Source of the DNA: Woeseia sp.
GTDB taxonomy: Bacteria; Pseudomonadota; Gammaproteobacteria; Steroidobacterales; Woeseiaceae
NCBI GenBank assembly: GCA_021773015.1
Contig: JAJFKW010000001.1
Coordinates: 2,215,305-2,279,304 of the forward strand
DNA length: 64,000 bases
Direction: 5' to 3'
A program made the translations under genes and the position numbers. The first letter of the stretch is position 1, and each line of letters opens with the position of its first letter. Of the stretch, positions 6,355 through 63,605 are shown piece by piece. The notes beneath the pieces are model-generated. The model ran no database searches, had not been told where the DNA came from, and was given only the letters and a program-made list of their open reading frames with translations.

Positions 6355-6393
6355 GTTATCTCCTGTACCACAACGTCTGCAAAGGGAGCGGAT

Positions 6394-6408: not shown

Positions 6409-6470
6409 TCGCCCAGTGGTACTACAATCAGCATATTCTCTTGCAGATTTCCGAGCGCTGAGAGTTTATC

Positions 6471-6499
6471 TTGAATTCATTTTGCATTCGAAGTACATT
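6471..6499 (+). promoter_or_regulatory. candidate sigma-70 promoter of the bicupin/HisD operon
   Basis: TTGAAT at 6471-6476 and TACATT at 6494-6499 are separated by exactly 17 bp. Each hexamer matches the sigma-70 consensus at 4 of 6 positions. The spacer contains most of the operator-like 15-mer at 6483-6497, so a bound repressor would block polymerase directly. The bicupin ATG follows about 49 bp downstream. Confidence 0.42.
6483..6497 (+). promoter_or_regulatory. operator-like motif, copy 2 (upstream of bicupin gene)
   Basis: Perfect copy of TGCATTCGAAGTACA, in plus orientation, 51-65 bp upstream of the bicupin ATG. Starts 89 bp after copy 1 and points the opposite way, so each divergent gene has the motif in the same orientation relative to itself. 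Overlaps the candidate promoter spacer and its -10 hexamer. Confidence 0.6.
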
Positions 6500-6547
6500 T
6501 ACCTTCCAGAGATAAGCAATGACAGAATAAAGTCGGGAAAACCGTAT

Positions 6548-7582: not shown

Positions 7583-7624
7583 CGACAGAAACGTTTTGAA
7601 TTAAATCACCATGAGGACTAGACA

Positions 7625-8908: not shown

Positions 8909-8926
8909 AGTAACTGCAAAAATGCG

Positions 8927-9814
8927 CTAACGGTCAACCATCGTAGAGCGAAAGAACGCAACGTCCCTATCGGCCGCGAGCTCGCGCATCTTCCCAACGA
9001 ACAAATGATCGCTACCATTGTAACTGTGTAACGTCCGTGGATGACCAATAGCTTGAAGCGCCTCCGCCAGACGACCAGAATTATGGTAGTACGTTGACTC
9101 GTCATCCACTGAGTGATGAATCATTACCGGTCCTTCGAGCGCATCAAAGTACTGAAACAGGTCATCAACATTCATGGTCGCCCAGAAAGTCGAAGACCTT
9201 ACAACATCCGTAGCAAGCATCGCGCGCATGGCAACAGCACCGCCCATCGAATGGGACCACAAGAAAATATTCTCCGTATCCGCGTTTTCGATTTGGTCAA
9301 TTGCCGATATCAGCGCAACGACGTCTTCTGCGTAATAGGCTACCGACTGATCATTTTGTGGGTCGACGAATTCGAAGCCTGTCGAGCTGTTGTGACCGCG
9401 ATAATCCGGCATGACGACTAGAAATCCACGCGACGTATATAGCTCTGGTATTGATCGGTAGTAGTCACCTGGCCGCGAGTTTACGCCTTCACGCGTAATG
9501 CCGTACGTTGGCGGCTCTGGAACGTAGCCATGATTTGCGATCACTATCGGAAAACCAGGCGCAGGACGTTCGGTTCGCGGAACGGCTATCAACGTATGCA
9601 ACTTTAGCCCGCCATATTCGTAGGAGGACACGCTAGCGGTGAAACTTCTGCCACCTTGTAGCGCGTGCTCGAACGTCAGCTTTGAATCGACGCTGTACGA
9701 TGCAAGTTCATCAATTGAAAGTGGTGCTGGCAAGATGTTTGCCGGCAAGTCCGTGGATGAATTAGAGCAACTAGCGGTGATGATGATCAATGCCAGCACC
9801 ATCGTTAGGTTCAT
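8927..9814 (-). CDS. alpha/beta hydrolase lipoprotein (esterase/peptidase-like)
   Basis: 295 residues from ATG 9812-9814. The frame also has a TTG at 9871 that would add 19 residues, including Lys11 and Lys16, and overlap the sulfatase stop. Neither start has a clear ribosome-binding site, so the start is uncertain. A hydrophobic segment ends in ITASC, a lipobox-like motif with Cys16, suggesting a lipoprotein. Catalytic triad candidates: Ser in SHSMGGA, Asp in HSVDDES and His in GSDHLF. HGYVPEP supplies the oxyanion-hole segment. It lies directly downstream of the sulfatase in the same direction and probably deacylates or hydrolyses an extracytoplasmic substrate. Confidence 0.85.
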   Translation of the reverse strand: MNLTMVLALIIITASCSNSSTDLPANILPAPLSIDELASYSVDSKLTFEHALQGGRSFTASVSSYEYGGLKLHTLIAVPRTERPAPGFPIVIANHGYVPEPPTYGITREGVNSRPGDYYRSIPELYTSRGFLVVMPDYRGHNSSTGFEFVDPQNDQSVAYYAEDVVALISAIDQIENADTENIFLWSHSMGGAVAMRAMLATDVVRSSTFWATMNVDDLFQYFDALEGPVMIHHSVDDESTYYHNSGRLAEALQAIGHPRTLHSYNGSDHLFVGKMRELAADRDVAFFRSTMVDR

Positions 9815-9848
9815 TGAGGCGAATTTGTTATTCAGGAATTTGTTCAGA

Positions 9849-12092
9849 TCACACCATATCAACGTCGACAACTACCCGGTGTATGCGTTGGTTAAATACG
9901 AACGGCGGTTCGTAAGCTCGCGTAACGGGAGCTTGACGGTTTTCGCCACAACGTATCCCGGCGTTTGCTGCATAGATAGGCCACATTTTGGTCAATTCCA
10001 TTTTGCCTACATCCACGTCGTCGACTGTCATCGTAACGATGCCGGAATCAGCGCTAATCTTCTCAATCTCAAGCGCCAATTTTTGCGAACCGACCGCGAG
10101 CCTGTTGTTCGAACGCAGCTCGTAAATCTCGTGACGCGTAAAAACATATACGAAATAGACGAATCCATCTTTGACGAATAACTCATACCCGCAACTACTA
10201 TCGCCCGCCGCAACGATCACCCCATCTACGGAAGCTGTCGAAATCGTAATGTCCGCAATAAGTCTGGAGTTGTATGTGTATATATCGGGTGCACTAAGTC
10301 GATCCAATCGAGTCATTCGCGGGTAGAACACGTAGGTCTCACGGGGCGGTGGCACAGAATTCTGGTACAACTTGAGGGTATCGTCATCAAGCGGCAGTAC
10401 ATCGTAGCGTTCCGCCTCCGCTCGCCACAGCGCGACAAGATCTGCAAGACGCTGCGGATGCTCACCAGCCAGATTGTTGGTTTCGGAAAAATCTTCCGCT
10501 GCATGATAGAGCTCCCAAACATCATCTTCGAATGCGCTTCCAGGTAGGTGCCTCGCCACCGCCTTCCAGCCATCAGACCAAATTGCCCGATCGCCGAGTG
10601 TTTCGAAATATTGTGACTTCTTTTTCGTTGGGGTATTCGGCTGATCAAATGAATACGCAAAGCTGGTCCCTTGGATAGGTAATGGCGATGCGCCACGAAA
10701 CTCTTGCGGCAATGACTCGCCGATCATATTGAGGACAGTTGGTACGATGTCAATGGCGTGATGATACTGGGCGTTAATTCCGCCTTGCGGTAAATCTCCG
10801 CCGGGCCAACTGACGACGAGAGGTGCACGAATACCGCCCTCATAGGTATCGGCTTTGTACCACTTCAGCGGCGTATTGCCCGCCTGAGCCCAACCGCGGG
10901 AATAGGAACAATAAGAGGCGTCCGTTCCCATAAGATCAATATCCGCAAGGAACTCCTCTATTGGTGCCGGACCCAAGTAAGCATCACGTCGAACATCGAG
11001 CCTGCCTTCAATTGGACCGCCATAAGCTGCGCCGTTATCAGACAGCACCAGAATAACGGTGTCGTCGAACTGTTGCTCCGCTTTTAGAAACTCGATCAGT
11101 CGAGCTATCTGGGCATCCGTGTGTTGTAGAAAAGCCGCGTATACTTCCTGCCCGCGTGCCGCGAGCCGACGTTGATCGGCATTCAGGTCGGTCCACGCAG
11201 GCGCATCTGGGTTTCTCGGTGCCAGTTTCGTACCTTCGGGAACAATGCCGGATGCGAGCTGACGTCTAAATCGATCCGCGCGCACCTGGTCCCAGCCGTG
11301 ATCGTACTGACCACGATGACTACGAATATCGTCAGCGGGTGCGTGCAACGGAAAATGCATCGCGCCAAACGCGAGGTAAAGAAAAAATGGGTTTTCTGGC
11401 GTCGCCGCCAAATGATCCGCAACATAGCCTATCGAGCGATCCACCAGATCGGCGCTTAGATGATAATCCTCGTTCTTTTCCGGGTATGCTGCGGAGGTAT
11501 TCTCGAACATTTCTGGATGCCAATGATCAATCGCGTTGCCGTGAAATCCATACCAGTGATCGAAGCCGCGGCGCACTGGCCAATGATCAAATGGCCCGGT
11601 GCCGTTTTGATCTGCCAGCGAGGACAAGTGCCATTTGCCGGTCGCCATTGTCGAGTATCCTGCTGGCTTCAATATTTCCGCAAGCGTCATCGCGTCTTGC
11701 CGAATCCATCCCCGATAGCCTGGATGATCTTCGCGACCCCATTCTGCGATATTGCCGACCCCGACCGCATGCGCATTGCGACCGGTTAGCAGGCAAGCGC
11801 GCGTGGGCGCACAGAGTGCCGTCACATGAAAATTATTGAATCGAGTGCCGGTGTTGGCAAGAGAATCGATGCATGGGGTGTTGTGTTCCGCGCCGTAACA
11901 ACCTAAATCGGCGAAGCCGACGTCATCCAACACAATCACGGCGACGTTGGGTTTTCGTTTTAGCGTCCGGGGCTGCCAACCTAAATCTTCAATCGACGTC
12001 TGTGCAGCGCCGCTGCGGTCGGCTGCCCCGGCGAGCGGCAGCGCGCTGGATGCCGCCGTTGCCTGAAGAAACTGCCGCCGCGTAATGCTCAC
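9849..12092 (-). CDS. Tat-exported type I sulfatase (arylsulfatase-like)
   Basis: 747 residues, GTG start with GGGAGGG 6 nt upstream. The N-terminus TRRQFLQA followed by a hydrophobic stretch is a twin-arginine signal. The mature part begins with PNVAVIVLDDVGFADLG (calcium-binding Asp56/Asp57). The formylglycine motif is CAPTR with Cys94, followed by ACLLTGR. ATGKWHLS and LSDNGAAYGG carry further metal and sulfate ligands. Length and motif spacing fit the long PAS/AtsA-type arylsulfatases. It cleaves sulfate esters in the periplasm and needs a formylglycine-generating enzyme, which is not in this window. With the downstream lipoprotein esterase it forms a two-gene operon. Confidence 0.95.
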   Translation of the reverse strand: MSITRRQFLQATAASSALPLAGAADRSGAAQTSIEDLGWQPRTLKRKPNVAVIVLDDVGFADLGCYGAEHNTPCIDSLANTGTRFNNFHVTALCAPTRACLLTGRNAHAVGVGNIAEWGREDHPGYRGWIRQDAMTLAEILKPAGYSTMATGKWHLSSLADQNGTGPFDHWPVRRGFDHWYGFHGNAIDHWHPEMFENTSAAYPEKNEDYHLSADLVDRSIGYVADHLAATPENPFFLYLAFGAMHFPLHAPADDIRSHRGQYDHGWDQVRADRFRRQLASGIVPEGTKLAPRNPDAPAWTDLNADQRRLAARGQEVYAAFLQHTDAQIARLIEFLKAEQQFDDTVILVLSDNGAAYGGPIEGRLDVRRDAYLGPAPIEEFLADIDLMGTDASYCSYSRGWAQAGNTPLKWYKADTYEGGIRAPLVVSWPGGDLPQGGINAQYHHAIDIVPTVLNMIGESLPQEFRGASPLPIQGTSFAYSFDQPNTPTKKKSQYFETLGDRAIWSDGWKAVARHLPGSAFEDDVWELYHAAEDFSETNNLAGEHPQRLADLVALWRAEAERYDVLPLDDDTLKLYQNSVPPPRETYVFYPRMTRLDRLSAPDIYTYNSRLIADITISTASVDGVIVAAGDSSCGYELFVKDGFVYFVYVFTRHEIYELRSNNRLAVGSQKLALEIEKISADSGIVTMTVDDVDVGKMELTKMWPIYAANAGIRCGENRQAPVTRAYEPPFVFNQRIHRVVVDVDMV

Positions 12093-12187
12093 GCAAAGCC
12101 CTCCCGTATCTATTTACCTATGCCGACGAATCAATCGTAGCTACTTTATTGGTCCGTTCAATTGAGCTGACGTATTTATCACTAAAA

Positions 12188-12216
12188 ACGCCCGAGATTC
12201 ACGACATCTCGGGCGT
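12188..12216 (-). terminator. Rho-independent terminator of the TonB receptor gene
   Basis: Perfect 10-bp inverted repeat (ACGCCCGAGA / TCTCGGGCGT) with a 9-nt loop. On the minus strand the stem is followed by TTTT. It starts 49 bp after the receptor stop codon and separates the receptor from the sulfatase operon. Confidence 0.88.
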
Positions 12217-12264
12217 TGTATTCCACACCGCAGAGCAAACCGTACTGCCCGTCAGTCAACTCGC

Positions 12265-14727
12265 TTATTCGAAAAATGCTCGAAGACGAATGCCGGAATT
12301 GCGAGGGGCAAGATATGACGTTTGCCCGAAGTCGTTACCGCCCACATTTGCGCGCGCGTTGACGGCCTCGTCTTCGATATTTTCGACAAACGCTTCAACC
12401 GAATACTTTTCGTCCGCAGAAACCCAAATCAGGCGAAGATCAGTTTTCGTAAACGAATCCTGGAAGCCGGAGGGATCGATTGGAAGATTGCCAGAAACAC
12501 TGTAAGAATCGCTCCAGAACGTTTGTAGCGCAGGGGTTAAAATACCATTGCTGCCCAGATCAAAATCGTAACTGGCGTTGAAGTTGATCGTTAAATCCGG
12601 CGACCACGGTGTGGTCTCGCCTTCCAGCTGAATAGAACCACCTAAGACGGTTGATCTGCCGTTGATCGTGACAGGCGTGCCGCCGTTGATAGGCAGGTCA
12701 CCGCTATAGGCTTGGTAGAGATTGCCAAAACCAAATTCACCATATTCCGAGTCGAGAAACGCGATGTTCGCCGACAAATTCAATGCATCGGTCGGTAACC
12801 ACACAGCCTCAATCTCCAGCCCGTTCGCATTGATCTCGCCGCCATTTCGCGTCGTGGTGCCAATGTTACCAGTATTGGGATCGACTGTTTGCAACTGCGC
12901 CAAGAGGTTGGTGTAGTCGGTCGAGTGTATAGCCACATTGACTTGCAGGGTCTCGTCCAGATACAGGCCCTTCAGTCCGATTTCGATAACTTCAGACTCC
13001 TGTTCATCGGTATCGTCACGAGCTGCGTTGACTGACCCGGACAAAAATCCAGTCGAGGCAGTCCCGTACAATAAAACACTGTCACCCAGATCATACTCAA
13101 TGCCTGCCCGCCAGGAAACATTGTCGTAACTCGAACTTGATGAAGAGATCCCGGGAACACCGAGATCGTAAACGAACACCTCCCGTGGTCTAATTGGAAT
13201 CACGGTCGGACTGGTACCAGTTTCGAAACCTGGACGAACGGTGACTGGCGGCGCATCAGAAAAATTGCTGCCGCCAACAACTGATTTGTCTTCGTCATTG
13301 AAACGTATTCCGCCAACTACTCTCAGTTGGTCATTGAACGCCCATTCACCCTGGAAATAGGCACCGAAGTAGTCGCTCTCAACTTCTGTTGCATCGGCAA
13401 AGTGGCCGTTGAGACTGGTATCCAAAGAGACCAGTGGCGATGCAATAAACAACGGCACGTCGATATCCATACCTTCGGCATCGATTGCCGTTACCGAGCC
13501 AATTCCAGAACGATCATCCATCGTGTGTCGAAAATCGCTAAAGCTGAAGAACACCGTGTCGGTCGAATAATATACGCCAGCCGTCCAGGAAAGCGGACCA
13601 TCGCTCGACGACGTAAGCTGAATTTCTTGGGTAAACGACTCAGCGTTTTCTTCAAACCAGAAACGCTCGAACGGATTTGGACCCGCGTCTCCGTCAAGAC
13701 CAACAAGACTTTCATAGTCAGTGTATGAGGTGATCGACTTCACTGAAAAGCTCGCGAAGTCGACATTGGCCTCCAGCGTGAAGTTGTCCTCGGTGAGATC
13801 TGTTTCGCTTACAAAATCTTGCTCAATCTGATATGGACCGGTGACGTCGAATGGCGTTGCTCCTACCCCACCACGCCGCGGATTGTTGCAATCCGTCAAC
13901 CCACCTGCTGCGTCCGTCAAACCGTCGACATCGACCGGACGACACAGACCGCCATAGGAGAATACGCCGAGCGATGTACCGCCTTCATCGGAATTACTGT
14001 AGCGAAACAGGAAATTCACAGTGTCGCTTGCATCCCATAACGCAGAAACGCGAAAACTGAGTTTGTCGTCTTCTCCAAGATTGCGGCCAGCCAGGTTTTC
14101 AACGTAACCGTCACTGGTCTGCTTAACGGCAGCGACGCGAAACGCGAGAGTATCGCTTGCCGGTAAGTTAAAGAATCCCTCGGTGCGAAACTTGTCGAAG
14201 CTCCCCGTTGAAATGGTAATACCTGCGCTCACACCGTCCGTGTTCGGTTTGTTGGTGTGCAGATTCATCGCACCAGCAAACGTATTACGACCATACAATG
14301 TACCCTGCGGCCCCCTAAGAAATTCCACTCGCTCCACATCGAAGAACTGTCGCGTTTGCTGCGAAGCACGCGGCTTGTAAACACCGTCGGTAAACACGCC
14401 AACAATTGATGCGTTGTCGCCGAATGTGTTGTTTGAATTTGCACCACGCACATTGAATTTCGCGTCGTTACCGATAAAGGCGAAGTTAACGCCTGGCACC
14501 AGCAAACCGATTCTCGTGGCGTCGTTGACGCCGCCTTTGGCCAAGTCATTAGAGCCAATTGCAGTGACTGCCAGACCGATATCTTGGATATTCTCAGCGC
14601 GCTTCTGTGCAGTGACAATAATTTCCTCGATTTGTGCGTTGGCAACCGGTACCGCAGCCAGGCACGCGCCAAGTACGAATATAAGAAATGGTGCGCTCGA
14701 TTTTTGTCGCGCGTTGATACTTGTCAT
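12265..14727 (-). CDS. TonB-dependent outer-membrane receptor
   Basis: 820 residues from the ATG at 14725-14727. An ATG six codons upstream is open, but GGGGGG lies just ahead of 14727 at a suitable distance, so the inner start is chosen. Signal peptide about 1-32 (FLIFVLGACLAAVPVANA), TonB-box-like EEIIVTAQKR, plug domain about 45-160 (VERVEFLRGPQGTLYGRN) and a 22-strand-type barrel ending in a terminal Phe (RLRAFFE). Imports a bulky substrate across the outer membrane using TonB energy. Two operator-like motifs lie 84-98 and 173-187 bp upstream, linking it to the catabolic genes at 5-9 kb. The substrate is unknown. Confidence 0.95.
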   Translation of the reverse strand: MTSINARQKSSAPFLIFVLGACLAAVPVANAQIEEIIVTAQKRAENIQDIGLAVTAIGSNDLAKGGVNDATRIGLLVPGVNFAFIGNDAKFNVRGANSNNTFGDNASIVGVFTDGVYKPRASQQTRQFFDVERVEFLRGPQGTLYGRNTFAGAMNLHTNKPNTDGVSAGITISTGSFDKFRTEGFFNLPASDTLAFRVAAVKQTSDGYVENLAGRNLGEDDKLSFRVSALWDASDTVNFLFRYSNSDEGGTSLGVFSYGGLCRPVDVDGLTDAAGGLTDCNNPRRGGVGATPFDVTGPYQIEQDFVSETDLTEDNFTLEANVDFASFSVKSITSYTDYESLVGLDGDAGPNPFERFWFEENAESFTQEIQLTSSSDGPLSWTAGVYYSTDTVFFSFSDFRHTMDDRSGIGSVTAIDAEGMDIDVPLFIASPLVSLDTSLNGHFADATEVESDYFGAYFQGEWAFNDQLRVVGGIRFNDEDKSVVGGSNFSDAPPVTVRPGFETGTSPTVIPIRPREVFVYDLGVPGISSSSSSYDNVSWRAGIEYDLGDSVLLYGTASTGFLSGSVNAARDDTDEQESEVIEIGLKGLYLDETLQVNVAIHSTDYTNLLAQLQTVDPNTGNIGTTTRNGGEINANGLEIEAVWLPTDALNLSANIAFLDSEYGEFGFGNLYQAYSGDLPINGGTPVTINGRSTVLGGSIQLEGETTPWSPDLTINFNASYDFDLGSNGILTPALQTFWSDSYSVSGNLPIDPSGFQDSFTKTDLRLIWVSADEKYSVEAFVENIEDEAVNARANVGGNDFGQTSYLAPRNSGIRLRAFFE

Positions 14728-49108: not shown

Positions 49109-49735
49109 TCACGATTCAACCGGCAGCTGAACAACGAATACCTGCTCGCTCAACGGGTGCGTCAGCCGTACGACCATCTGTCCGCCAGAGATGCCATTGG
49201 CGATTATTGGCAGACTCAAGCGGTTGACGCCAGCCTCAAGATTTTCAGACCATGATAGCTCGCGGCGCGTGCCGTATCCGTCAATTTCAATGTCACCCGC
49301 AAGCAGAATGCTGATAGTTGCTCCTGAGAGTTTCTTGTCGGTCTCGAATGCGATACTCATCGTCCTTGGCTCGTCTAGCGACACCAGAAACTGTTCGGTC
49401 ACGCTGGTCGGTGCAACGCCGCCCCAATTCAGAAATAGTGCAATTGCGAATATGGAGGCCGCGACGGCACCGAATCCTGCACCCAGCCAAAACCGACTTC
49501 GGTCCGGCGCCCGACCGACCGTGCGGCCGACAGTCTCAATTACGGTGTTGAAAAAATGTTCTGGCGGCTGTGCCATCCCCCTGGCGTGCAACGCATTGAG
49601 TGCCTCAGCGCCATGCAACGCTGACCGACATTCTGCACAGTGCTCGATGTGCACCATGGCTGCTGCACGTTCTTCGGCAGCCAATTCTCCGGATGCCAAA
49701 GCCCGAATGCGCGCACTGGCTGCCTCACAATTCAT
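49109..49735 (-). CDS. zinc-finger anti-sigma factor
   Basis: 208 residues from ATG 49733-49735. The anti-sigma zinc finger shows Cys3 and His29-x3-Cys33-x2-Cys36 (HIEHCAECRSAL). A membrane segment lies about residues 84-108 (GAGFGAVAASIFAIALFLNW). The periplasmic part is beta-rich (SGATISILLAGDIEIDGYG; LEAGVNRLSLPIIANG). It should hold the ECF factor encoded upstream at the membrane. Its start lies 11 bp inside the sigma gene, implying translational coupling. The upstream extension of this frame to 49798 is inside the sigma gene and is rejected. Confidence 0.9.
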   Translation of the reverse strand: MNCEAASARIRALASGELAAEERAAAMVHIEHCAECRSALHGAEALNALHARGMAQPPEHFFNTVIETVGRTVGRAPDRSRFWLGAGFGAVAASIFAIALFLNWGGVAPTSVTEQFLVSLDEPRTMSIAFETDKKLSGATISILLAGDIEIDGYGTRRELSWSENLEAGVNRLSLPIIANGISGGQMVVRLTHPLSEQVFVVQLPVES

Positions 49736-50300
49736 TGTTGTTTCCAACGGCCATAAGGTTCGGGCCGAGTGAGCGGTCGTTTGCCAAAAGCCGCCCAAGA
49801 CGGGCGCGGGTCCGATGCAACTGCGCCTTGATCGTGCCGGCTGGCATCCCCGTTAGATCGTGGAGTTCCGAAATGCTAAAGCCTTCGATATCCCGCAACG
49901 CCACGAGAGCAGCCAAGTCACTATTTAGGTGTTTCATTGCCATGAGAATTCTTACGATACGTACATCGCGATCTGCTTCCTCGTCTGGTAACCAACGGCT
50001 TTCTGGCCGTTCATCCGGGTCGAGCGAATCCGCCCCTGTATCTGCCTGGCTGATTGGGGAGCGCGCCGACAGCCGCTGATTATCGATGAATTTGTTGTAC
50101 ATGACTCTTAATAACCATGCTCGTTGATACGCGATCCGCTCAAACTCTTCGATACGCAGAAATGCTTTCAGGCAGACGTCCTGGACCAGGTCCTCGGCGT
50201 CGACCGACGACAGGGTCATGCGCCTAGCTGCGCCGTACAACGCATCGAAATGTGGCCGCAACAACACTTCAAACCGTTTTTTCTGCGAGTTGTGCTGCAT
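49725..50300 (-). CDS. ECF RNA polymerase sigma factor
   Basis: 191 residues. Region 2 (FDALYGAARRMTLSSVDAED, LVQDVCLKAFLRIEEF, then YQRAWLLRVMYNKFIDNQR) and region 4 (LVALRDIEGFSISELHDLTG, then MPAGTIKAQLHRTRARLGRL) are canonical. A 28-residue acidic linker between them (GADSLDPDERPESRWLPDEE) is longer than usual. Paired with the zinc-finger anti-sigma factor, so activity should depend on release at the membrane. The operon continues with the Pro/Gly-rich protein and the TPR/barrel protein, the likely regulated products. Divergent from the DUF4382 lipoprotein with a 170-bp gap. Confidence 0.94.
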   Translation of the reverse strand: MQHNSQKKRFEVLLRPHFDALYGAARRMTLSSVDAEDLVQDVCLKAFLRIEEFERIAYQRAWLLRVMYNKFIDNQRLSARSPISQADTGADSLDPDERPESRWLPDEEADRDVRIVRILMAMKHLNSDLAALVALRDIEGFSISELHDLTGMPAGTIKAQLHRTRARLGRLLANDRSLGPNLMAVGNNNEL

Positions 50301-54259: not shown

Positions 54260-55075
54260 CTAATAAGGAGTTGATTCGCGAACGAACTTTTTCAGTGCTT
54301 TTGAAAGCACATCCGGCTCCTCCACCATCAACGCATGACCGCTGTTCTCAAACCAAACCAGCTGGCATTCCGCGATTCGCGATGCCATGTAGTCCGACCA
54401 GCCTGGCGGGGCGACCTTATCGTGCCGGCCGTGGCATATAAGCGTAGGCAAATTGACATCCTGCAACTTGTTTCGCAGATCTTCATTGAGCAGAGTATTA
54501 AAGCAGTTGTAGCCGACATAAGCCGGCATCTTCAGCCACTGGCTCAGGAACCAGTTAACAGTCGCTTGCATATCATCGCGGTGAAAATTTACACCTGCGA
54601 ATGCGGCCATGGTCTCCGGCAAAGCAGTCCGCATACCCTCAAGCGTTGCCTGCGCCATCTCAGCATTCAGACCAAATGGTTCCGAGTCGGTCGCCAGCAA
54701 TCGTGGTGTGGCCGGCCCGACCATCGCCAACCTCGTTACGCGCATGTCCTCATTGAATTCAGTAACGTACTTTAGACCTATGCCGGCACCCATAGACCAC
54801 CCTATGAGCGTAACGTCATGTAAGTCTAGCGCCAGCAAGAATGCATTCACGTCACTGCACATCTCGTCATAATCATAGCTGGAATACGGTTTGTCGGAAT
54901 CGCCATGGCCGCGCAGATCAAGACAAATACAGCGAAATTGACTGTGCAATTCGAGCACTTGATAGTTCCAAGTGTCTAAGGTCGCTGCGAGGCCGGGAAT
55001 AAATACAAGCGGTTCGTCCTTCCCGCCATCCCGGTAGTGCATACGTATGCCCGTACTTAATTCTATGAATGGCAT
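54260..55075 (-). CDS. alpha/beta hydrolase
   Basis: 271 residues. HG-type oxyanion region (LVFIPGLAATLDTW), DLRGHGDSDKPYSSYDYDEM, nucleophile elbow IGWSMGAGIG, late Asp in CHGRHDKVAPP and His in NSGHALMVEEPDVL. This is the 3-oxoadipate enol-lactonase/epoxide-hydrolase/C-C hydrolase type. Cytoplasmic. The start overlaps the end of the upstream esterase gene by 13 bp, so it belongs to the minus-strand array that begins with the zinc alcohol dehydrogenase. Likely the last enzyme of a small ester or lactone pathway. Confidence 0.92.
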   Translation of the reverse strand: MPFIELSTGIRMHYRDGGKDEPLVFIPGLAATLDTWNYQVLELHSQFRCICLDLRGHGDSDKPYSSYDYDEMCSDVNAFLLALDLHDVTLIGWSMGAGIGLKYVTEFNEDMRVTRLAMVGPATPRLLATDSEPFGLNAEMAQATLEGMRTALPETMAAFAGVNFHRDDMQATVNWFLSQWLKMPAYVGYNCFNTLLNEDLRNKLQDVNLPTLICHGRHDKVAPPGWSDYMASRIAECQLVWFENSGHALMVEEPDVLSKALKKFVRESTPY

Positions 55076-56028
55076 ATTAGTCGTCCCTTCAGCATTTTCA
55101 CAATCTCATCAAGAGCCGCAGCGGCGCCCGTCACAACTCCAGTCAGACCAATAAACCCATGCACCAAACTATCGAAACATCGATACTCGACATCGACACC
55201 GGCATCACGTAATTTGGTCGCATACGCTGCACCTTCGTCCCGCAGCGGATCGAATCCAGCGGTTACGACAATTGCGGGAGGTAATCCCGAATGCGTCTCG
55301 GCATACAAAGGAGAGGCTCTGTAATCCATAATATCACTGCCATCTCGCAGGTAATTGGTGCTGGACCAGATCATCAGGGATCGCGTCAGTCTAAAACCGT
55401 CGCCAAACGAATTGTGCGACGGGTAGGACATTGATAAATCAGTTGCGGGGTAGATCAGCAGCTGACAGTAAAAATTAATTCGACTGTCCCGCCGTGCATG
55501 CAAAGCCACAACCGCTGCCAGATTAGCACCCGCACTGTCACCTGCAAGAACGATTCGAGACGGATCTGCGCCGAGTGCTTCAGCATTTTTTCCTGCCCAC
55601 TCACCGGCTTCAATTGCGTCATCCACCGCCCTGGGAAATTTGTATTCGGGTGCCAGGCTGTATTCCACTGAAGCAACAATTGTCGAAGCACCAGTGCAGA
55701 TCGCTCGACATGCAGCATCATGCGTTTCAATACTGCCAAAGCTCCAGCCGCCACCATGGAAATACAAGACCATCGGTATTGGTGAATCATCCGTTGCCTC
55801 GGGATAATAAATTCGTACTGGCAGATGCCGGTCGGTGTCGTTTATCTCGGTGTTGAGTATTCGTGCAACACGTTCGCCGCGACTAGCAAGCAGTTTGGCG
55901 CCGTTCGCGTAGGCGATTCGGGCATCTACTGGACTTAACGATTGTAGTGGCACAGACCCCGCTTCCTGCAACTCCCGCAGAAGATCGGCAATCTGCGGGT
56001 CCAGTTCTCTGAAGTTCTCTTCCGTCAT
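55063..56028 (-). CDS. HSL-type (family IV) esterase/lipase
   Basis: 321 residues. HGGGWSFGS supplies the oxyanion hole and GDSAGANLAAVV the nucleophile Ser, the signature pair of the hormone-sensitive-lipase family. Late Asp in TAGFDPLRDEG and His in DSLVHGFIGLTG complete the triad. No signal peptide. Family members hydrolyse short- to medium-chain esters, including those of terpenes and aromatics. Eight bp after the alcohol dehydrogenase stop and overlapping the next hydrolase, so tightly within the operon. Confidence 0.94.
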   Translation of the reverse strand: MTEENFRELDPQIADLLRELQEAGSVPLQSLSPVDARIAYANGAKLLASRGERVARILNTEINDTDRHLPVRIYYPEATDDSPIPMVLYFHGGGWSFGSIETHDAACRAICTGASTIVASVEYSLAPEYKFPRAVDDAIEAGEWAGKNAEALGADPSRIVLAGDSAGANLAAVVALHARRDSRINFYCQLLIYPATDLSMSYPSHNSFGDGFRLTRSLMIWSSTNYLRDGSDIMDYRASPLYAETHSGLPPAIVVTAGFDPLRDEGAAYATKLRDAGVDVEYRCFDSLVHGFIGLTGVVTGAAAALDEIVKMLKGRLICHS

Positions 56029-56036
56029 GCAAAATA

Positions 56037-57173
56037 TCAGTCGTCATCGAACAAAATGATTTGGCGAGTGGACTCACCGCCAGCCAGCCTATCAAACGCT
56101 GCATTGATGTCCGACAATGAAAGTGTTTCCCCCATCAGTTTTTCGACGGGCAACAGTCCTTTTTGGTGAAGGTCTATGTAATTGGGTATATCCCTTACAG
56201 GCACACAACTCCCGAGATAACTGCCACGAAGCGTTCTCTCTTCGCCCACCACCTGTAATGCTGGAATCGATAGCCTTGCGTCGGGACCGGGCAACCCTGC
56301 TGTCACAGTTTGGCCACCGCGCCTGGTAATTGCCCACGCTAACTCGAGCGCCGAAGTGGATCCGACCATCTCTAGAGCACAGTCCACGCCACCATTACTC
56401 AAACTACGGACGATTGCCGCGCACTCCGGATTGTCCGCCTTCACGGTTTCCGTTGCGCCCAGTTCCTTGCTCAGAGAAAGCTTTTTGTCTTTTAGATCTA
56501 TCGCAATTATTTGTCGTGCGCCGGCCAATCTAGCGCCTAGTACGGCGTTCATGCCAACGCCACCCAATCCGACCACGGCGACCGTTGAGCCGGCTTTGAC
56601 CCGCGCGGTATTCAATACCGCGCCGACACCGGTAATGACCGCGCAGCCAAACAATGCCGCATGATCAAACGGCAAGGCGGGATCGATACTGACAACAGAG
56701 TGCTTGCTAACGACTGCATATTCCGCGAACGCCGAAACGCCGAGGTGGTGATTAACCGGCGCGCCGTTTCGATACAGGCGACGCGCTCCGGAAAGAAGAC
56801 TGCCTTCGTTGTTGGCAGTCGCTGCCGGTTCGCAAAGCGCCGGCCGCCCCTCCGCGCATGGTACGCAGTGACCGCAACTTGGAACAAAGACGATCACGAC
56901 ATGGTCGCCGGTTGTAAATCCTTCAACACCCGGCCCCGTCCCCACCACAATACCTGCAGCTTCGTGCCCGAGAACCATTGGCGTGGGCCGCACGCGCGAT
57001 CCACTAATGACAGATAAATCTGAATGACAGAGTCCTGCCGCACGGATTTTCACCATCACCTCGTCACGTCCAGGCGGCATCAATTCAAAAGAGCGAATTT
57101 TAAGCGGCTTGCTCTTCGCGTAGGGCTGATCAGCACCAACACTCTCAAGCACGGCCGCCTCAATGATCTGCAC
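56037..57173 (-). CDS. zinc-dependent alcohol dehydrogenase (class III-like MDR)
   Basis: 378 residues. Catalytic zinc Cys in AAGLCHSDLSVISG, GHEAAGIV with the conserved Glu, structural zinc cluster CGHCVPCAEGRPALC and Rossmann motif VVGLGGVGMNAVLGA with a following Asp (AIDLKDKKL) favouring NAD+. The layout matches the aryl/long-chain alcohol dehydrogenases of the medium-chain superfamily. It should oxidise an alcohol released by the esterases downstream. The gene begins 35 bp after the TonB receptor stop, so the receptor and enzymes may be co-transcribed. Confidence 0.94.
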   Translation of the reverse strand: MQIIEAAVLESVGADQPYAKSKPLKIRSFELMPPGRDEVMVKIRAAGLCHSDLSVISGSRVRPTPMVLGHEAAGIVVGTGPGVEGFTTGDHVVIVFVPSCGHCVPCAEGRPALCEPAATANNEGSLLSGARRLYRNGAPVNHHLGVSAFAEYAVVSKHSVVSIDPALPFDHAALFGCAVITGVGAVLNTARVKAGSTVAVVGLGGVGMNAVLGARLAGARQIIAIDLKDKKLSLSKELGATETVKADNPECAAIVRSLSNGGVDCALEMVGSTSALELAWAITRRGGQTVTAGLPGPDARLSIPALQVVGEERTLRGSYLGSCVPVRDIPNYIDLHQKGLLPVEKLMGETLSLSDINAAFDRLAGGESTRQIILFDDD

Positions 57174-57208
57174 AACTCACCCCCTTTTGCGCCGCCAAGT
57201 TAGATCAG

Positions 57209-59734
57209 TTAGAAGCTATAGCTGAGCTGTATTCCATAGGTTCGCGGCGCCGCCAAAAAACCTTCCGGTTTGCCAGTTTCAACACCAGATTCTAGGATGT
57301 TTAGAAAATAATCCTCATCCAGAGCATTTCTCACAAACGCCGCCATCGACCAAGAACCATCGTTGTCACTGAAACTGACGCGAGCGTTAAGCATGCTGAA
57401 CGCATCCTGCGCTGAAAGATCGCGATTAAAAGTCGTGAAGAAACTCTTGTCCTGATACTGATAGTCCACGCGAAACGTCAGCTCGTTTGTATTACCGAAT
57501 GGAACGGCATATTCGCTACCGATGTTCGCCGAAAAATCTGGTGAGCGCGGCAAATTGTTTCCATTGAGATCGATTGTACCCAGCTGCGGATTGCTCGGAT
57601 CTTCCGTCAAAAACTCGTCGAACTCGGCGCTCAAAAACGATAAGCCAGCATTCAGCCGCCAGCGATCTGTAGGCTGTGCAAGCAATTCGACTTCAGCACC
57701 AAAAATCGTCGCATCGGCCGCATTGGTTATAACGCCGGCGTTATTCTCAAGTTTGGATACTTGCAAATCCGTATAATCGTAGAAAAACGCTGACCCGTTT
57801 AGAATAACCGAGCCTTCAGCAAGCTTTGATTTGAATCCGGTTTCATAGGCCCAAACGAACTCCGGATCGAAACTTGGTTGAATTCCATTGAAAGTGAAAC
57901 CGCCACTTTTAAATCCGCGCGTCACGGTGGCGTACCACAATACGTCGTCGCTAACCGAATATTCAATTCCGAATTTCGGCGTCAATTCATCCGAATCGGT
58001 ACTCAGATCTGCCGGTGGAAAAGGCGGGCCTAAGCCGATGAATTCCGAAAGTTGTACCGCCTCCTTTTCCTCGGAGTTAAATCGCAATCCGGCGGTGAGG
58101 GACAGACGATCTGATACCTTGTAGGTGGCCTGACCAAACACCGCGTATGCATCGGTTGACATCGTCGCGATATGAAGAATATCGAAGCCGAAGCCCGGTA
58201 TCGGAATAAAAATACTCGTGTCACCATCGTCGTTGAAGTAGTACGCACCAACAATCCAGTTCCACGAATCGGAATTGTCGGACGCCAAACGAAACTCTTG
58301 AGAGAACTGCTGAGTATCGTCACGGTCTTCGAAATTTTGAAATGTAATATCTACCGCGTCACCGTCGAAAACCGCCTCGAATTCGGTATCGCGATATGAC
58401 GAAACCGAGCTAAACGACATTCCGTCAAGATCCCAGTTGATAATCCCTGTAATTCCAAATTGATCCTGCATTTCTGTAACCGGCGATTCCTGTGATACCG
58501 CGCGCAATCCGGGAGGATCATTGGCGCCCAGGCCGCCCTCGAACAGATCTGAAAATTCGAGCTGCTTGAACGGCGCAGGACTGCTATCGTCTTGCGCAAA
58601 ATCAGCGATTAGATCAATAGTAAGGTCGTCGCTGGGCAAGAATCGAAGGCGAAGGCGACCCATCAGCAGATCTTCGTCAAACAGATCCTCTCCGGTAAAC
58701 AAGTTAGGGGTGAATCCGTCGCGATCGCTTTTGACAATTGCGACACGAGCCAGCACTTTGTCCTCGACAAGTGGCCCGCTGAAAACGGCACCAAGCCGAA
58801 GATAGTCAAAATCGCCGACTTCCGCCGTAACTTTGCCTTCAAATTCAGTGGTCGGCGCGTTTGAGAGAATGTTGACAGTACCACCGGTGGCATTCCTTCC
58901 ATAAAGCGTTCCCTGCGGTCCACGCAGCACCTCAACTCGTTCTACATCGTACAAATCAAAAATCGCCGCCGACGTTCTTGCAATGTACGCCCCATCGGTA
59001 TGCACAGCCACTCCAGGATCGCCGCCGATTGTAAGATTTTCTGCGCCAATTCCCCGGATATATATTTTGCCGACAATTTCCTTATTGACGATCATCCCTG
59101 GCGTCTGAATACCAACATCGTACAAATCCTGGATGATCGATTTTTCCAATTGCTCCGACGTAAATGCAGCAATTGAGAGTGGCGCTCGTTGAAGGCTTTC
59201 TTGCCGCTTCTGAGCCGTCACGATGATTTCCTGCAGAACAGTCCCAGAGCTGGACCGATTCGGTGCTGGCGGTGTCGGTTCATCGTCAATATCTACGGCG
59301 TCTGTATCTGAACTAGCGGGCTCAACACGACTTTCGCCTTCGGCGGCAGAATTCTGTCCCCGATCACCACCGGTCGGCATGACTGTCACCGTTCGGGCAC
59401 TTGAGTACTCGTAACTTAGGCCGGTCTGCGCAAGCAACTTATCTAATGCATCGTTCGGCTGCATTGATCCGGACACTGCCACACTACGCAGGCCGTCGAC
59501 CGCCGATGCATCGACGATGATCTGCAAATCCGCTTGCTCGGAAAAACTAAGCAAGGCAGACGCCACCGATTGCGGCGGTATTTCAAACTTTATGACCGCA
59601 GATTGCTGTTGCGCCGCAACCGTCCCGGACCAGACTGCGATTGCTATCGCCAATGCTATTACGCTTAGAACGCGCCACGAATTTCCAAATCTGCTGTCGG
59701 AACGTAGCAATTTTTTTTGCCATTCATCAATCAT
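57209..59734 (-). CDS. TonB-dependent receptor with STN signalling domain (FecA-like architecture)
   Basis: 841 residues from ATG 59732-59734; AGGAGG lies 8 nt upstream and an ATG at 59779 does not have such a site. Signal or membrane segment about 22-42 (VLSVIALAIAIAVWSGTVAA), STN domain about 48-105 (FEIPPQSVASALLSFSEQAD; LDKLLAQTGLSYEY), an acidic linker, TonB-box-like EIIVTAQKRQESL, plug about 190-310 (VERVEVLRGPQGTLYGRN), barrel ending IQLSYSF. STN domains contact FecR-type proteins; fecR and fecI homologues lie immediately upstream. Imports an unknown substrate and reports its presence. Confidence 0.95.
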   Translation of the reverse strand: MIDEWQKKLLRSDSRFGNSWRVLSVIALAIAIAVWSGTVAAQQQSAVIKFEIPPQSVASALLSFSEQADLQIIVDASAVDGLRSVAVSGSMQPNDALDKLLAQTGLSYEYSSARTVTVMPTGGDRGQNSAAEGESRVEPASSDTDAVDIDDEPTPPAPNRSSSGTVLQEIIVTAQKRQESLQRAPLSIAAFTSEQLEKSIIQDLYDVGIQTPGMIVNKEIVGKIYIRGIGAENLTIGGDPGVAVHTDGAYIARTSAAIFDLYDVERVEVLRGPQGTLYGRNATGGTVNILSNAPTTEFEGKVTAEVGDFDYLRLGAVFSGPLVEDKVLARVAIVKSDRDGFTPNLFTGEDLFDEDLLMGRLRLRFLPSDDLTIDLIADFAQDDSSPAPFKQLEFSDLFEGGLGANDPPGLRAVSQESPVTEMQDQFGITGIINWDLDGMSFSSVSSYRDTEFEAVFDGDAVDITFQNFEDRDDTQQFSQEFRLASDNSDSWNWIVGAYYFNDDGDTSIFIPIPGFGFDILHIATMSTDAYAVFGQATYKVSDRLSLTAGLRFNSEEKEAVQLSEFIGLGPPFPPADLSTDSDELTPKFGIEYSVSDDVLWYATVTRGFKSGGFTFNGIQPSFDPEFVWAYETGFKSKLAEGSVILNGSAFFYDYTDLQVSKLENNAGVITNAADATIFGAEVELLAQPTDRWRLNAGLSFLSAEFDEFLTEDPSNPQLGTIDLNGNNLPRSPDFSANIGSEYAVPFGNTNELTFRVDYQYQDKSFFTTFNRDLSAQDAFSMLNARVSFSDNDGSWSMAAFVRNALDEDYFLNILESGVETGKPEGFLAAPRTYGIQLSYSF

Positions 59735-59880
59735 ATCGGTATGTCCTCCTGCACTAAACATGTTGGAGCATACGAACAACGCTCAGCATTAAGACGACGA
59801 GCGAACCGATTTTGAGAATTTGTGGCTAAAGAGATACTGGCGATCGCAAAAGAGACGGTGCAAATCGGCATTAAGCAACA

Positions 59881-60936
59881 TTACCGGTCCGCGTGAATGA
59901 TAAGAATTCCATGTTCGTCAACTTTGATTTGCCGCAGCGGGAAAACGTGCTCAATACCTGCCAGCCAATTGTCGATATCGTTTGAAAATATCGTGCCGGT
60001 GAATATTAATTGTTTCGTCGCTTCATCACCGATGATGATTTCAGTTTCCGAATAGCGATTTACGTCTGCAATCACGGACTCCAAACGCGCGCCGTCATAA
60101 GCAAGCCGCCCGTTCAGCCACGACGTACTGAGCATCGGATCTGCCTCACTAACGATTTCGAGGCCGCCAGCTGCGTTGAAGTCCAGAACATCGCCAGAGC
60201 CAAGATCTAGAATCGTCGCTGAACCAGATTGGCCGGTTGCTTCGCTGTCTTGCAGCGCAGGACCTTCTACGCGAACCTGTCCCTCGATTACGGACACCTT
60301 GATATCACGCACACCGATGTTGACATCAAATTCGGTGCCGAGCGCGCGAACGGTTCTAGCTCCTGCCGCAACTATGAATGGCCTCGACGCATCTTTCGCA
60401 ACTTTGAAATATGCTTCGCCACTGCGCAGCTCGATTCGACGTGCACTTCTACTGTAGGCAATTCGCACATCCGACTCTGCGCCCAGCGTAACGCTCGATC
60501 CATCCGCAAGTTGAATCAATCGATGCTCGGCTGTCGCAGTTTCATAGCCGGCAGGATCTTCGATATTGTCGTGTAGCAATCCAAATCCAATCAGGCATGC
60601 AACGACTAACGATGCGGCGGCCGCCATCCAAAACAAACCGCTGTTACGTTGATGTCGCACCGGATGGGGTGACGCAACGGGCAACGGCGTCTGCCCGTCG
60701 TAAATGTCCGCTGTTAATTCGTCCTCGCTTGGCCATGGCAATTCGGTTAGCAAATCCGTCTCCTGCCAGAACTCGCGTACGGCGTCAAAAGCCGCGGCAT
60801 GCGTATCATCTTCTGCCAACCACTGTCGCCACTGCCGAAAATCAGCTTGCGAGAATCCGTCGCGGATTCGCAAAAACCAGGTTTCGGCCTCTTCCCTAGT
60901 CTCATCTACGTAGCGATTTTGATCACCTCGATCCAT
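59881..60936 (-). CDS. FecR-family anti-sigma/signal-transducing protein
   Basis: 351 residues. N-terminal DUF4880-type segment with the conserved Trp-rich helix (FRQWRQWLAEDDTHAAAFDA), TM about 93-113 (FWMAAAASLVVACLIGFGLL), periplasmic FecR domain about 130-240 (HRLIQLADGSSVTLGAESDV; RIELRSGEAYFKVAKDASRP; VRALGTEFDVNIGVRDIKVS) and a C-terminal STN-like domain (FTGTIFSNDIDNWLAGIEHV). Receives the receptor's signal in the periplasm and releases the sigma factor. Lies between fecI-like and receptor genes, with gaps of 30 and 146 bp. Confidence 0.94.
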   Translation of the reverse strand: MDRGDQNRYVDETREEAETWFLRIRDGFSQADFRQWRQWLAEDDTHAAAFDAVREFWQETDLLTELPWPSEDELTADIYDGQTPLPVASPHPVRHQRNSGLFWMAAAASLVVACLIGFGLLHDNIEDPAGYETATAEHRLIQLADGSSVTLGAESDVRIAYSRSARRIELRSGEAYFKVAKDASRPFIVAAGARTVRALGTEFDVNIGVRDIKVSVIEGQVRVEGPALQDSEATGQSGSATILDLGSGDVLDFNAAGGLEIVSEADPMLSTSWLNGRLAYDGARLESVIADVNRYSETEIIIGDEATKQLIFTGTIFSNDIDNWLAGIEHVFPLRQIKVDEHGILIIHADR

Positions 60937-60966
60937 GTATGTTTTCCTCCAACTACCGGCATGCCG

Positions 60967-61581
60967 TCACTGGCCGCCAAGGTTTTCATTGTCAAGACGC
61001 GACCGACAATAGGCAATCGCTCTTAATACGTACTTTCGAATCATGCTTTCCGTTAGCTGCATTTGCTCCGCAATTTCGGAATATGACAGTTCTTTGAACT
61101 TGTACAGTAGGAATGCCTTGCGGCATTTCGGCGGCAATTCCGCAACAATCTTCATTATCAATGACAGTTGCTCACGTGCACCCACGATCGTATCGACGGA
61201 AACTGCCGGTGCAGGAAGGCCATCGCTAACGCCATCGAACGATAGGTGTTGCGGTTGTCGACCTTGGCTGCGCATCCGGTCAATCGCGATATTTGACGCT
61301 ATCTTGAAAAGATACGCCTGCATGTGGCTGATCGTGTCGGATTCGTCTAGTTTGAGCATCCGTGCATACGCTTCCTGCGCGACTTCCTCCGCGTCTCTTC
61401 GGGAACACAGACGGACGCTTAAGTAGCGAACCAGAGACTCGTTATACTTCTGAAACGCACGTCCGACGACGTCCGTGGATGATGCACTTTCCTCGATCGG
61501 TGCTGATGCATTTACCTCACGCTCAGCGTGCTGCTTCGCTGGCCGTTTTTGCGATACCGCTTTAGAGGTCGAATTCTGCAT
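60967..61581 (-). CDS. FecI-type ECF sigma factor
   Basis: 204 residues from ATG 61579-61581; the frame extends 44 codons upstream without family similarity. Residues 1-45 are a polar leader. Region 2 (YNESLVRYLSVRLCSRRDAE; EVAQEAYARMLKLDE; AYLFKIASNIAIDRMRS) and region 4 (LPPKCRKAFLLYKFKELSYS; EIAEQMQLTESMIRKYVLRA) are clear, in the FecI subfamily style. It should direct transcription of the receptor and downstream enzymes when FecR signals. The long leader is unusual; the start could be lower if the Lys/Arg-rich leader is not translated. Confidence 0.93.
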   Translation of the reverse strand: MQNSTSKAVSQKRPAKQHAEREVNASAPIEESASSTDVVGRAFQKYNESLVRYLSVRLCSRRDAEEVAQEAYARMLKLDESDTISHMQAYLFKIASNIAIDRMRSQGRQPQHLSFDGVSDGLPAPAVSVDTIVGAREQLSLIMKIVAELPPKCRKAFLLYKFKELSYSEIAEQMQLTESMIRKYVLRAIAYCRSRLDNENLGGQ

Positions 61582-61808
61582 AGGTTGACTGCCGTTTAGA
61601 CAATATAGACGACAGAGCAGTCGAATTTGGGAATATTTTTGGATCGAATTAGCGCGATCAGCTTGAAATTTCGAATTCGAGGCAATCTTTGGAACAGATG
61701 TGCAAGTTTCCAACGCTATTCGGTCAGAGCACCGAACCGAGAGTGCCAGACAGATCTAGGCAGCGTAATTGGCGGCGTTTTACTGATTTGTATTTTCCTT
61801 AATTCAAA

Positions 61809-63605
61809 TTAGTCACCCGCCTGTAGCGGTTCTGGAAGCTGATCTGCCTTTCCAGATTTCCGCAAAATTGCGAGCGCATTACCGCCAAAAAAACGTTCTT
61901 TATACTGTGACAGATCTCCAGTAAAAACAGCTTCGAATGCGGATACCATCTTTTCGTAATTCCGTTCCTTTATGACCATCATCCAATCGCTACCGTACAT
62001 AATTTTGTCAAAAATGGAGTACTCCATGGGCGCGTGTGTTGTCCGACACGACTGCGGAAAAAGCTCTGCAGCACTGGTTGTTGTAGATCTATCATGCATT
62101 GCTTGAAGCCGCGTTCTCAGCGCGTTCTTGCCATCGTCAGTCAATACGTTTTCGTGATATCCAAAATCGCAATACACGTTTTCGTAAGTAACACACAGGT
62201 TATGTGCCTGCACACCAAAGGACCGATCGAAGTCCGCATCAGTGCCGTACCACGCATCACCGCCAGAGTGTCCGAGAATCAACCGTAGCTTCGGGTTTTC
62301 TTTCAGCCGCGGTAGCCACTTACATGGATCAGCGAACTCTTGTCCATACCCTTTGTAACCTTCAAACCCCTGCGGCGTATGGTGCGCGAAGATTAGCAAT
62401 CCCTCATTCTCGGCAAATTCGAAAAATCGCTGCGATACCCCCTCCAGCGTTTGCTCCTTTGCCTTGCTAGGATTGGTCACCGTGACCCCCCAGTTTCTTC
62501 GAACGCGGTTGCTGCCTAATGGATTGTAACGGTGCTTCCATTGTTTGCGAGCACCGCCTTGGTAGATAATGCCCCGAAATCGTTTCGGCTTTCGTGGAAT
62601 TCTGTCAACCGATGCGCTGTAGCCACTCGGCGGATAATATTTGGCACCAACAACGCCGCTAGCAATTGCAGTTTTCAAAATCGATAAATCATAATCGTCG
62701 TAGCGGAAAGGTACGAATGCTGAAAATGTTATCAATCGATCGTCGTTTAGCTCGCGCATCTTTTTGACGATCGCGTGCTGATCTGCGAATGCAACCGGCG
62801 GTGCACTGTTGTATACCGGCTCAAGGTCCATCATGTAATGCACAAAATAGTCAACCATACAATTTTCATCTAGCAGTTGCTGAGCAAGCTTGTCCTCTGG
62901 CTGTATCATCACTGCAAAAAACCGGTATGCGCCCTGTACGGTAGCGACTAGCTCGAATGGCTTAATGAGCAGCGCAACAAGTCGATCAACGATTTTCAAC
63001 TCTGCCATCGCATTGACCATCGCGGCGTGACCGTCAGGCGCGAGCGCACCAATGTTGAAACTGCTGGCGCCCGGTTGACCGGACAAGTCAGCAAAATAGT
63101 CTGTCAACGGCGTATCCGCCGGTTGACCAAGCGCAGACGCATTTGTCCTCATCGCTTGCTCGTTCTCCAGTTCGGAGACAAGATATTCGTTCAGCTCGCG
63201 ATCAAATCTGTCTCGTTCCGGCGTACTGAGTGACTCAATCGGTGCATCTAGATAATCGATGTTCGCAGATATTGCACGGGTCCTGAAATCTACGCTAATC
63301 GCATCGCTGCCAGTGCGATATTGTAGCGACGCGAATTGATCTGCAGCCGATTCCTCGACGCGTCCGGTCATTCCCCAGATAATGTCAGCCGCCACACCGG
63401 CGACAAAATCGGGGACGCCCCAACCGTAGAGGATGCCGCGTAGCGGAAGATGCCGGAAATTGAACGTGTGTGCGTGAAAATCGACAACCGGGTAATCCAT
63501 GTCCTTTTTGCGGCACGCACCTTTTTCCCAGGCCTCCGCCGCAACACTGTTGCTCGCAACAACGATCCCGAATATTGCTATTAGTATTCTGTAACTTGTT
63601 CGCAT
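61809..63605 (-). CDS. secreted TIM-barrel amidohydrolase (amidohydrolase_2 type)
   Basis: 598 residues. Signal peptide about 1-23 (ILIAIFGIVVASNSVAAEA). Metal motif VVDFHAHTFNF, a His pair in LLIFAHHTPQGFEGY, ILGHSGGDAW and the last Asp in IMYGSDWMMV, all in the order of the ACMSD/amidohydrolase_2 barrel. It is about 250 residues longer than typical members; a large helical insertion (about 75-260) separates the HxH strand from the rest of the barrel. Acts in the periplasm, probably a hydrolase or decarboxylase. Same strand as the FecI/FecR/receptor array but 228 bp upstream of it, so co-regulation is only possible. Confidence 0.88.
   Translation of the reverse strand: MRTSYRILIAIFGIVVASNSVAAEAWEKGACRKKDMDYPVVDFHAHTFNFRHLPLRGILYGWGVPDFVAGVAADIIWGMTGRVEESAADQFASLQYRTGSDAISVDFRTRAISANIDYLDAPIESLSTPERDRFDRELNEYLVSELENEQAMRTNASALGQPADTPLTDYFADLSGQPGASSFNIGALAPDGHAAMVNAMAELKIVDRLVALLIKPFELVATVQGAYRFFAVMIQPEDKLAQQLLDENCMVDYFVHYMMDLEPVYNSAPPVAFADQHAIVKKMRELNDDRLITFSAFVPFRYDDYDLSILKTAIASGVVGAKYYPPSGYSASVDRIPRKPKRFRGIIYQGGARKQWKHRYNPLGSNRVRRNWGVTVTNPSKAKEQTLEGVSQRFFEFAENEGLLIFAHHTPQGFEGYKGYGQEFADPCKWLPRLKENPKLRLILGHSGGDAWYGTDADFDRSFGVQAHNLCVTYENVYCDFGYHENVLTDDGKNALRTRLQAMHDRSTTTSAAELFPQSCRTTHAPMEYSIFDKIMYGSDWMMVIKERNYEKMVSAFEAVFTGDLSQYKERFFGGNALAILRKSGKADQLPEPLQAGD

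Follow-up and report, generated by a model that had tools for sequence, protein, structure and literature searches.

A predicted non-iron FecI/FecR signaling unit joined to an alcohol dehydrogenase and two hydrolases in Woeseia, with an exchangeable front end

A 64,000-nucleotide stretch of a Woeseia sp. genome (assembly GCA_021773015.1, contig JAJFKW010000001.1, positions 2,215,305 to 2,279,304; hereafter the window) carries a packed array of six minus-strand genes, which open reading frames and Pfam matches identify as encoding an extracytoplasmic function (ECF) sigma factor, a FecR protein, a TonB receptor with an STN domain, a zinc alcohol dehydrogenase (ADH), an HSL-type esterase and an alpha/beta hydrolase. 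The FecI-like sigma factor (60967..61581; 204 aa from its ATG; Pfam Sigma70_r2/r4_2) is followed after 30 bp by a FecR-type anti-sigma/sigma regulator of 351 aa (59881..60936; Pfam FecR, E 1.4e-21, and DUF4880). The third gene encodes a TonB-dependent transducer (57209..59734), which starts at an ATG with an AGGAGG site and comprises a signal peptide, an STN signaling domain (59375..59527; Pfam E 1.9e-13), a plug and a barrel (Pfam Plug and TonB_dep_Rec_b-barrel). After a gap of 35 bp comes the zinc-dependent, probably NAD-linked ADH (56037..57173; 378 aa, GTG start; Pfam ADH_N and ADH_zinc_N), then, 8 bp further on, the esterase (55063..56028; Pfam Abhydrolase_3), and finally the hydrolase (54260..55075; Pfam Abhydrolase_1; GWSMG nucleophile elbow; nearest solved chain 5h3h), which overlaps the esterase gene by 13 bp. 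The original prediction had described these six genes and, for the last three, the same tight packing, gaps and overlap, and the annotation and spacing bear this out.

Reading of the upstream regions revealed the motif TTCCCAAA-N14-CGTCT ahead of the sigma and receptor genes alike. The predicted ECF promoter of the sigma gene (TTCCCAAA-N14-CGTCTAT; 61605..61633, minus strand) suggests autoregulation, and its counterpart (TTCTCAAA-N14-CGTCTTA; 59790..59818, minus strand) would drive a receptor-enzyme operon. The sigma frame is open upstream to TTG 61713, beginning before its promoter, and the receptor frame is open as far as TTG 59779. Because these longer frames run into or beside the predicted promoters, the most likely starts are ATG 61581 for sigma and ATG 59734 for the receptor.

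The pattern TTCYCAAA-N14-CGTCTWW had exactly two matches in the 4.84-Mb genome, which are these same two promoters, and a reversed-pattern control had none. In 107 genomes of the family the pattern matched seven times, as compared to three times for the control; six of the seven are sigma or receptor promoters (genomes G000, G047 and G049), and the seventh, in G068, lies away from the unit. When two mismatches were allowed, the genome count was hardly higher than that of the control (32 versus 30). In the fetched loci, 380,956 bases read on both strands, the strict pattern (pattern A) occurred 12 times, which equals the number of promoters, before sigma or receptor, that fit it exactly in the six class-A loci; since the patterns were derived from those loci, their specificity elsewhere is the informative part. 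No ECF promoter motif was found in the 35-bp gap between the receptor and enzyme genes, and terminator-like hits there did not exceed those in shuffled sequences. As exact matches occur at the two promoters only and none separates the receptor from the enzymes, the regulon predicted by motif is limited to the sigma-fecR and receptor-enzyme operons. The motif is conserved along with the class of sigma factor, consistent with a sigma-dependent promoter upstream of the receptor, and the sequence gives good support to the claim that Fec-type signaling is wired to the enzymes.

An alternative is that the unit serves iron uptake, in which case the receptor would import an ester-bonded ferric xenosiderophore, the esterases would open it and the ADH would be incidental. 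Fes/IroE-type or PfeE enzymes open ester-bonded siderophores. The nearest solved receptors are those for ferripyoverdine (5odw, E 3e-27) and other siderophores, and the best NCBIfam model of the receptor is TonB-siderophor, at 199.9 bits under a cut-off of 223.5; both observations count against a non-iron ligand. FecI/FecR/STN systems also classically serve iron, according to the available part of one study (PMC9249621). However, no Fur box with 3 or fewer mismatches was found in the window. The best upstream matches have 7-9 mismatches of 19. In contrast, the best Fur box of the genome, with only 2 mismatches, is located some 60 bp ahead of what by eye resembles a gene for an iron-binding periplasmic protein, followed by a permease gene. 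The enzymes, moreover, are an HSL and an Abhydrolase_1 protein, both without an evident signal peptide, accompanied by an ADH, and do not represent a siderophore esterase family. The absence of iron genes noted in the original prediction holds for the array and its immediate neighbors, the only part of the window surveyed for them, and genes for iron transport or reduction, such as a ferric reductase or ABC transporter, are likewise missing from the conserved unit of the relatives. Because the motif is exclusive to sigma and receptor, no Fur box occurs at the locus and the genome has one elsewhere, a dedicated non-iron regulon is favored, and we regard the iron explanation as quite unlikely. 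Fur boxes upstream of fecI and separate promoters for the enzymes had been named in advance as evidence that would speak against the original reading; neither was found, and it therefore stands on both points.

A receptor scan of genome contigs returned 15 loci, 11 of which have a receptor 56-78% identical to that of the window; loci L035-L038 (30-38%), which have neither the front end nor the enzyme trio, were for that reason not counted as units. The order receptor-ADH-esterase-hydrolase is kept in all seven gammaproteobacterial loci (window, L024-L028, L033). All six genes are in order in L024, L027, L028 and L033, and L025 and L026 combine the conserved receptor and enzymes with a different sigma factor (26% identity) and FecR (30%). 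Among the alphaproteobacteria, an HSL esterase lies downstream of the receptor in all five loci with more than 55% identity (L029-L032, L034), directly after it in four (L030, L031, L032, L034); in L034 the match is split into two adjoining pieces. An ADH is present in L029 and L032, the latter having the order receptor, HSL esterase, ADH and second esterase. The array, which the original prediction suggested looking for in gammaproteobacteria and sphingomonads, recurs in the former and in part in alphaproteobacteria, including one Sphingomonadales metagenome-assembled genome (MAG). DNA homology between relatives begins just upstream of the sigma promoter and stops at the hydrolase gene (L024 versus L033, 82.8% from 6134 to 13417; L024 versus the window, 70.2% over 7.4 kb), and none was detected in the compared flanks. 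The locus behaves as a discrete unit set at different sites.

A receptor more than 70% identical occurs in 5 of the 107 family genomes (G000, G047-G050), and exactly these five hold the ADH orthologue (E<=1e-100) and the hydrolase orthologue (E<=1e-60). Since the ordered array recurs elsewhere and these orthologues co-occur with the receptor, the locus is a real unit and more than a chance arrangement. It is rare in the genomes sampled: among 369 genomes of the class, only the Woeseia genome itself had the hydrolase (E<=1e-60), and among 398 of the phylum, again only this genome had the receptor (E<=1e-150). The isolate code OFTM stands on 10 of the 11 close relatives, from both gamma- and alphaproteobacteria, which may reflect habitat-linked transfer or mere sampling bias; it apparently denotes MAGs from an Oslofjord tunnel biofilm (PMC10732223, in the part available). 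Two neighboring frames were also observed in the window. A 598-aa, secreted-looking amidohydrolase (61809-63605; Amidohydro_2) is encoded ahead of sigma in the same orientation, and was rejected as a member of the unit since it is absent beside it in relatives. A few kb away, a minus-strand open frame (49725-50300) resembles another ECF sigma factor.

The enzyme trio also occurs with another barrel. A second unit in G050 (L095) has the order sigma-b, FecR-b and receptor-b, followed by ADH (77%), esterase (64%) and hydrolase (73%, running off the contig end). Its receptor is 72% identical to the second receptor of L029, and its barrel only 39% to that of the window. The promoters of L095 are of a separate kind, GTCCAMA-N14-YGCCT (class D), with four matches in total, among them the receptor-b promoter of L029. 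The presence of the same trio with two different barrels points to a shared ligand class. In L029, the second sigma-FecR-receptor set is followed by hydrolase, ADH and esterase, and a 36-residue remnant of the ADH C-terminus (6237-6344) separates receptor A from the second sigma gene. This suggests an ancestral receptor-ADH unit that was later split by the insertion of the second front end with its receptor. By eye, the second unit of G050 (L095) adjoins an AbiEi/AbiEii-type-like pair and a HipA-like gene (7199-11112), as in a genomic island.

These data bear on whether the genes are merely co-located, with the enzymes acting on unrelated substrates and sigma controlling the receptor alone. 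Some alphaproteobacterial loci lack the ADH and the esterase paralogues differ, as such an arrangement would allow. Against it stand the order kept in the gammaproteobacterial loci between flanks that share no homology in the pairs compared, the agreement in presence and absence of receptor, ADH and hydrolase across the 107 genomes, the second unit with its own barrel and the same trio, and the 35-bp gap, in which the motif is absent and terminator-like hits stay at the level of shuffled sequences. Mere co-location is therefore a very improbable explanation.

The catalytic motifs of all three enzymes are intact, with residues and cofactor assigned as is usual for these families. The HSL esterase has HGGGW, GDSAG, D(PLRDE) and H(GF), which are kept in the aligned relatives; its score of 338 bits against the LipP1-family model NF058653 is under the curated cut-off of 350. 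The hydrolase has its nucleophile serine, Asp and His, conserved across the aligned orthologues. The ADH has the Cys/His/Cys ligands of the catalytic zinc, the structural zinc cysteines and GxGxxG, conserved in seven aligned rows, as well as the kind of acidic residue that NAD-dependent enzymes typically carry. By eye, the N-termini of the three show no evident signal peptide. The chemistry is for this reason probably cytoplasmic, and the ligand would have to cross the inner membrane by other means.

Several routes to a substrate were tried and rejected. The nearest plasmid ADHs inspected (56-63%) have acetolactate-synthase-like, CoA-transferase, lactonase and regulator neighbors with no common theme, and the neighbors of plasmid-borne receptors (35-37%) are varied and contain no esterase trio (L042 is unannotated). 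Plasmid relatives of the hydrolase reach only 31-35% identity among the matches listed. More distant receptors of the lineage are suggestive of organic acids or esters, and not decisive: L101, L104 and L105 adjoin an alpha/beta hydrolase with an E1 dehydrogenase and an AMP-ligase, or an HSL esterase with a short SDR fragment, or an MFS protein, and no clear picture emerged from reading the neighborhoods of L102 and L103.

Taken together, we think it probable that the array is a self-contained pair of cell-surface-signaling operons whose ligand would be organic, with an ester or lactone the likeliest candidate. The ligand would bind the receptor, and the STN domain would relay the signal to FecR, which would free or activate the sigma factor. 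Sigma would then use the two matching promoters to transcribe the sigma-fecR operon, to which it belongs, and the receptor-ADH-esterase-hydrolase operon and, judged by motif, nothing else in the genome. Following uptake, the ligand would be cleaved in the cytoplasm by the esterases, and the ADH would oxidize the alcohol released. Use of an ester by the locus is a reasonable inference; the original prediction further held that the ester is taken up and that its alcohol and acid parts are both used, as may be the case.

In addition to the siderophore likeness of the receptor, several points weigh against this interpretation. The promoters are predicted from sequence, with patterns counted in the loci that yielded them, and one locus (L030) fits pattern A loosely, with one mismatch at the receptor and three at sigma. 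In L030 and L034 the receptor has no ADH next to it, and L031 has nearby, on the opposite strand, an unrelated iron-type ADH and another HSL esterase. As the 56-63% relatives of the ADH sit in varied contexts, this enzyme gives no substrate name. Finally, genes for an inner-membrane transporter, an aldehyde dehydrogenase and an acyl-CoA ligase are all absent from the conserved unit. This last absence, together with the patchy distribution of hydrolase and receptor, would fit a unit that senses and destroys a signal or toxic ester or lactone, for example from biofilm neighbors, without catabolism of the products. In contrast, a TonB receptor would actively import the compound, which is odd for a toxin; general metabolism could finish the pathway; and the E1 dehydrogenase and AMP-ligase beside the receptor of L101 are catabolic neighbors. 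Such inactivation is unlikely, and we prefer the use of an organic ligand.

Comparison of the relatives indicated that the sensing front end on one side and the plug, barrel and enzymes on the other are separable evolutionary modules. Relative to the window, L024 and L033 are 71-74% identical in STN, 88% in the plug and 84-85% in the barrel; for L025 and L026, the corresponding values are 29-30%, 88-91% and 85-86%. Between L024 and L025, DNA identity is about 20-50% until it climbs to 67-87% at about 8536-8541 of L025, at codons for EEIIVTAQKR, which we take to be the TonB box. In the window, the onset of homology to L025 marks the start of the retained TonB box, plug and barrel (57209..59230, minus strand). 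A tree of 12 barrels, from which two receptor-b rows were left out, placed L025/L026 as sister to L024/L033 (99/99), and a clade of the window, L024 and L033 was rejected (p-AU 0.003). A hand count on this tree indicates at least two front-end replacements.

In the swapped relatives, the STN domain was replaced together with FecR and sigma, which indirectly supports the presumed ligand-triggered contact between STN and FecR that would release sigma. The sigma tree groups L025/L026 with L096, L098, L099 and L100 at 100/99, some branches being long, and both loci have a class-B promoter, TGGAAA-N13-CGTCR, ahead of sigma and of the receptor. The front ends of the donor-class loci L096-L100 are related in sigma (51-60%), FecR (43-52%) and STN (54-69%), and the window barrel finds no match in the receptors behind them. 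The class-B promoter occurs twice in three of these five loci (L096, L098, L100); the lack of the strict pattern in L097 and L099 counts against the assignment. The front end of L025/L026 thus matches a Woeseiaceae class that drives unrelated receptors elsewhere. Yet another front end, the third, is found in L031 and L034: its STN is 30-32% identical to that of the window, and TGGAGG-N16-CGTAW precedes sigma and receptor.

On these alignments and trees, the entire front end (both promoters, sigma, FecR and STN) is swapped en bloc up to the TonB box in two lineages, and the barrel and enzymes stayed. It is quite likely that front ends are plug-in cartridges of sigma promoter, sigma, FecR, receptor promoter and STN, recombined at the TonB box, with three unrelated sigma/promoter pairs (TTCYCAAA-N14-CGTCT, TGGAAA-N13-CGTCR and TGGAGG-N16-CGTAW) on one barrel-enzyme unit, a fourth (GTCCAMA-N14-YGCCT) on the second barrel, and at least one cartridge from a class serving unrelated receptors in the family. 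Exchange at the TonB box would explain how one ligand-specific barrel-enzyme unit is driven by three such pairs. The linker between STN and TonB box in L025 (8064-8560) and its equivalent in L026 holds a second signal-peptide-like stretch, MNVKKKAGLLAVLAGVFTGGANAQ, with a ribosome-site-like GAGGGG before its ATG; this is possibly a fusion scar, or an internal start yielding an STN-less receptor.

FecI/FecR/STN-receptor logic for a carbon source is found in the ECF/FecR-controlled glycan loci of Bacteroidetes, which belong to another phylum and use SusC/SusD and other enzymes. The array resembles E. coli FecIRA (ferric citrate) in its ECF sigma factor, FecR and STN-bearing receptor and in that sigma drives the receptor operon; in the available part of PMC9249621, E. 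coli fecIR is Fur-regulated and not autoregulated, whereas the Woeseia array has the motif before sigma as well, shows no Fur box, and carries esterases and ADH downstream in place of fecBCDE. Pseudomonas FoxIRA, Pup and FpvA, the last being the nearest solved receptor, share the contact of the STN or signaling domain with the anti-sigma factor (PMC11637429, PMC7186176), but as far as those sources extend they are siderophore transducers without the esterase-ADH trio. In Xanthomonas, genes for carbohydrate-utilization TonB receptors likewise cluster with enzymes that degrade the presumed ligand; its FecI/FecR transducer locus, however, is Fur-linked and treated as iron signaling, and the available part of that study does not show a FecI/FecR-receptor-esterase-ADH unit (PMC1790865). 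Titles and abstract openings of open-access papers gave no description of this unit or of natural sigma-FecR-STN block exchange, which, given that limit, is weak evidence of novelty.

The unit is best placed within TonB-dependent cell-surface signaling, and its exchangeable front end is the most interesting part. As a FecI/FecR regulon outside iron uptake, it is cleanly delimited and open to testing, since its promoter motif is defined and its predicted targets number only two. From the natural swaps it can be seen that sigma, FecR, STN and both promoters move as a set and that the joint is at the TonB box. They bear on how the specificity between anti-sigma factor and receptor is maintained, and may provide natural designs for receptors that report chosen ligands.

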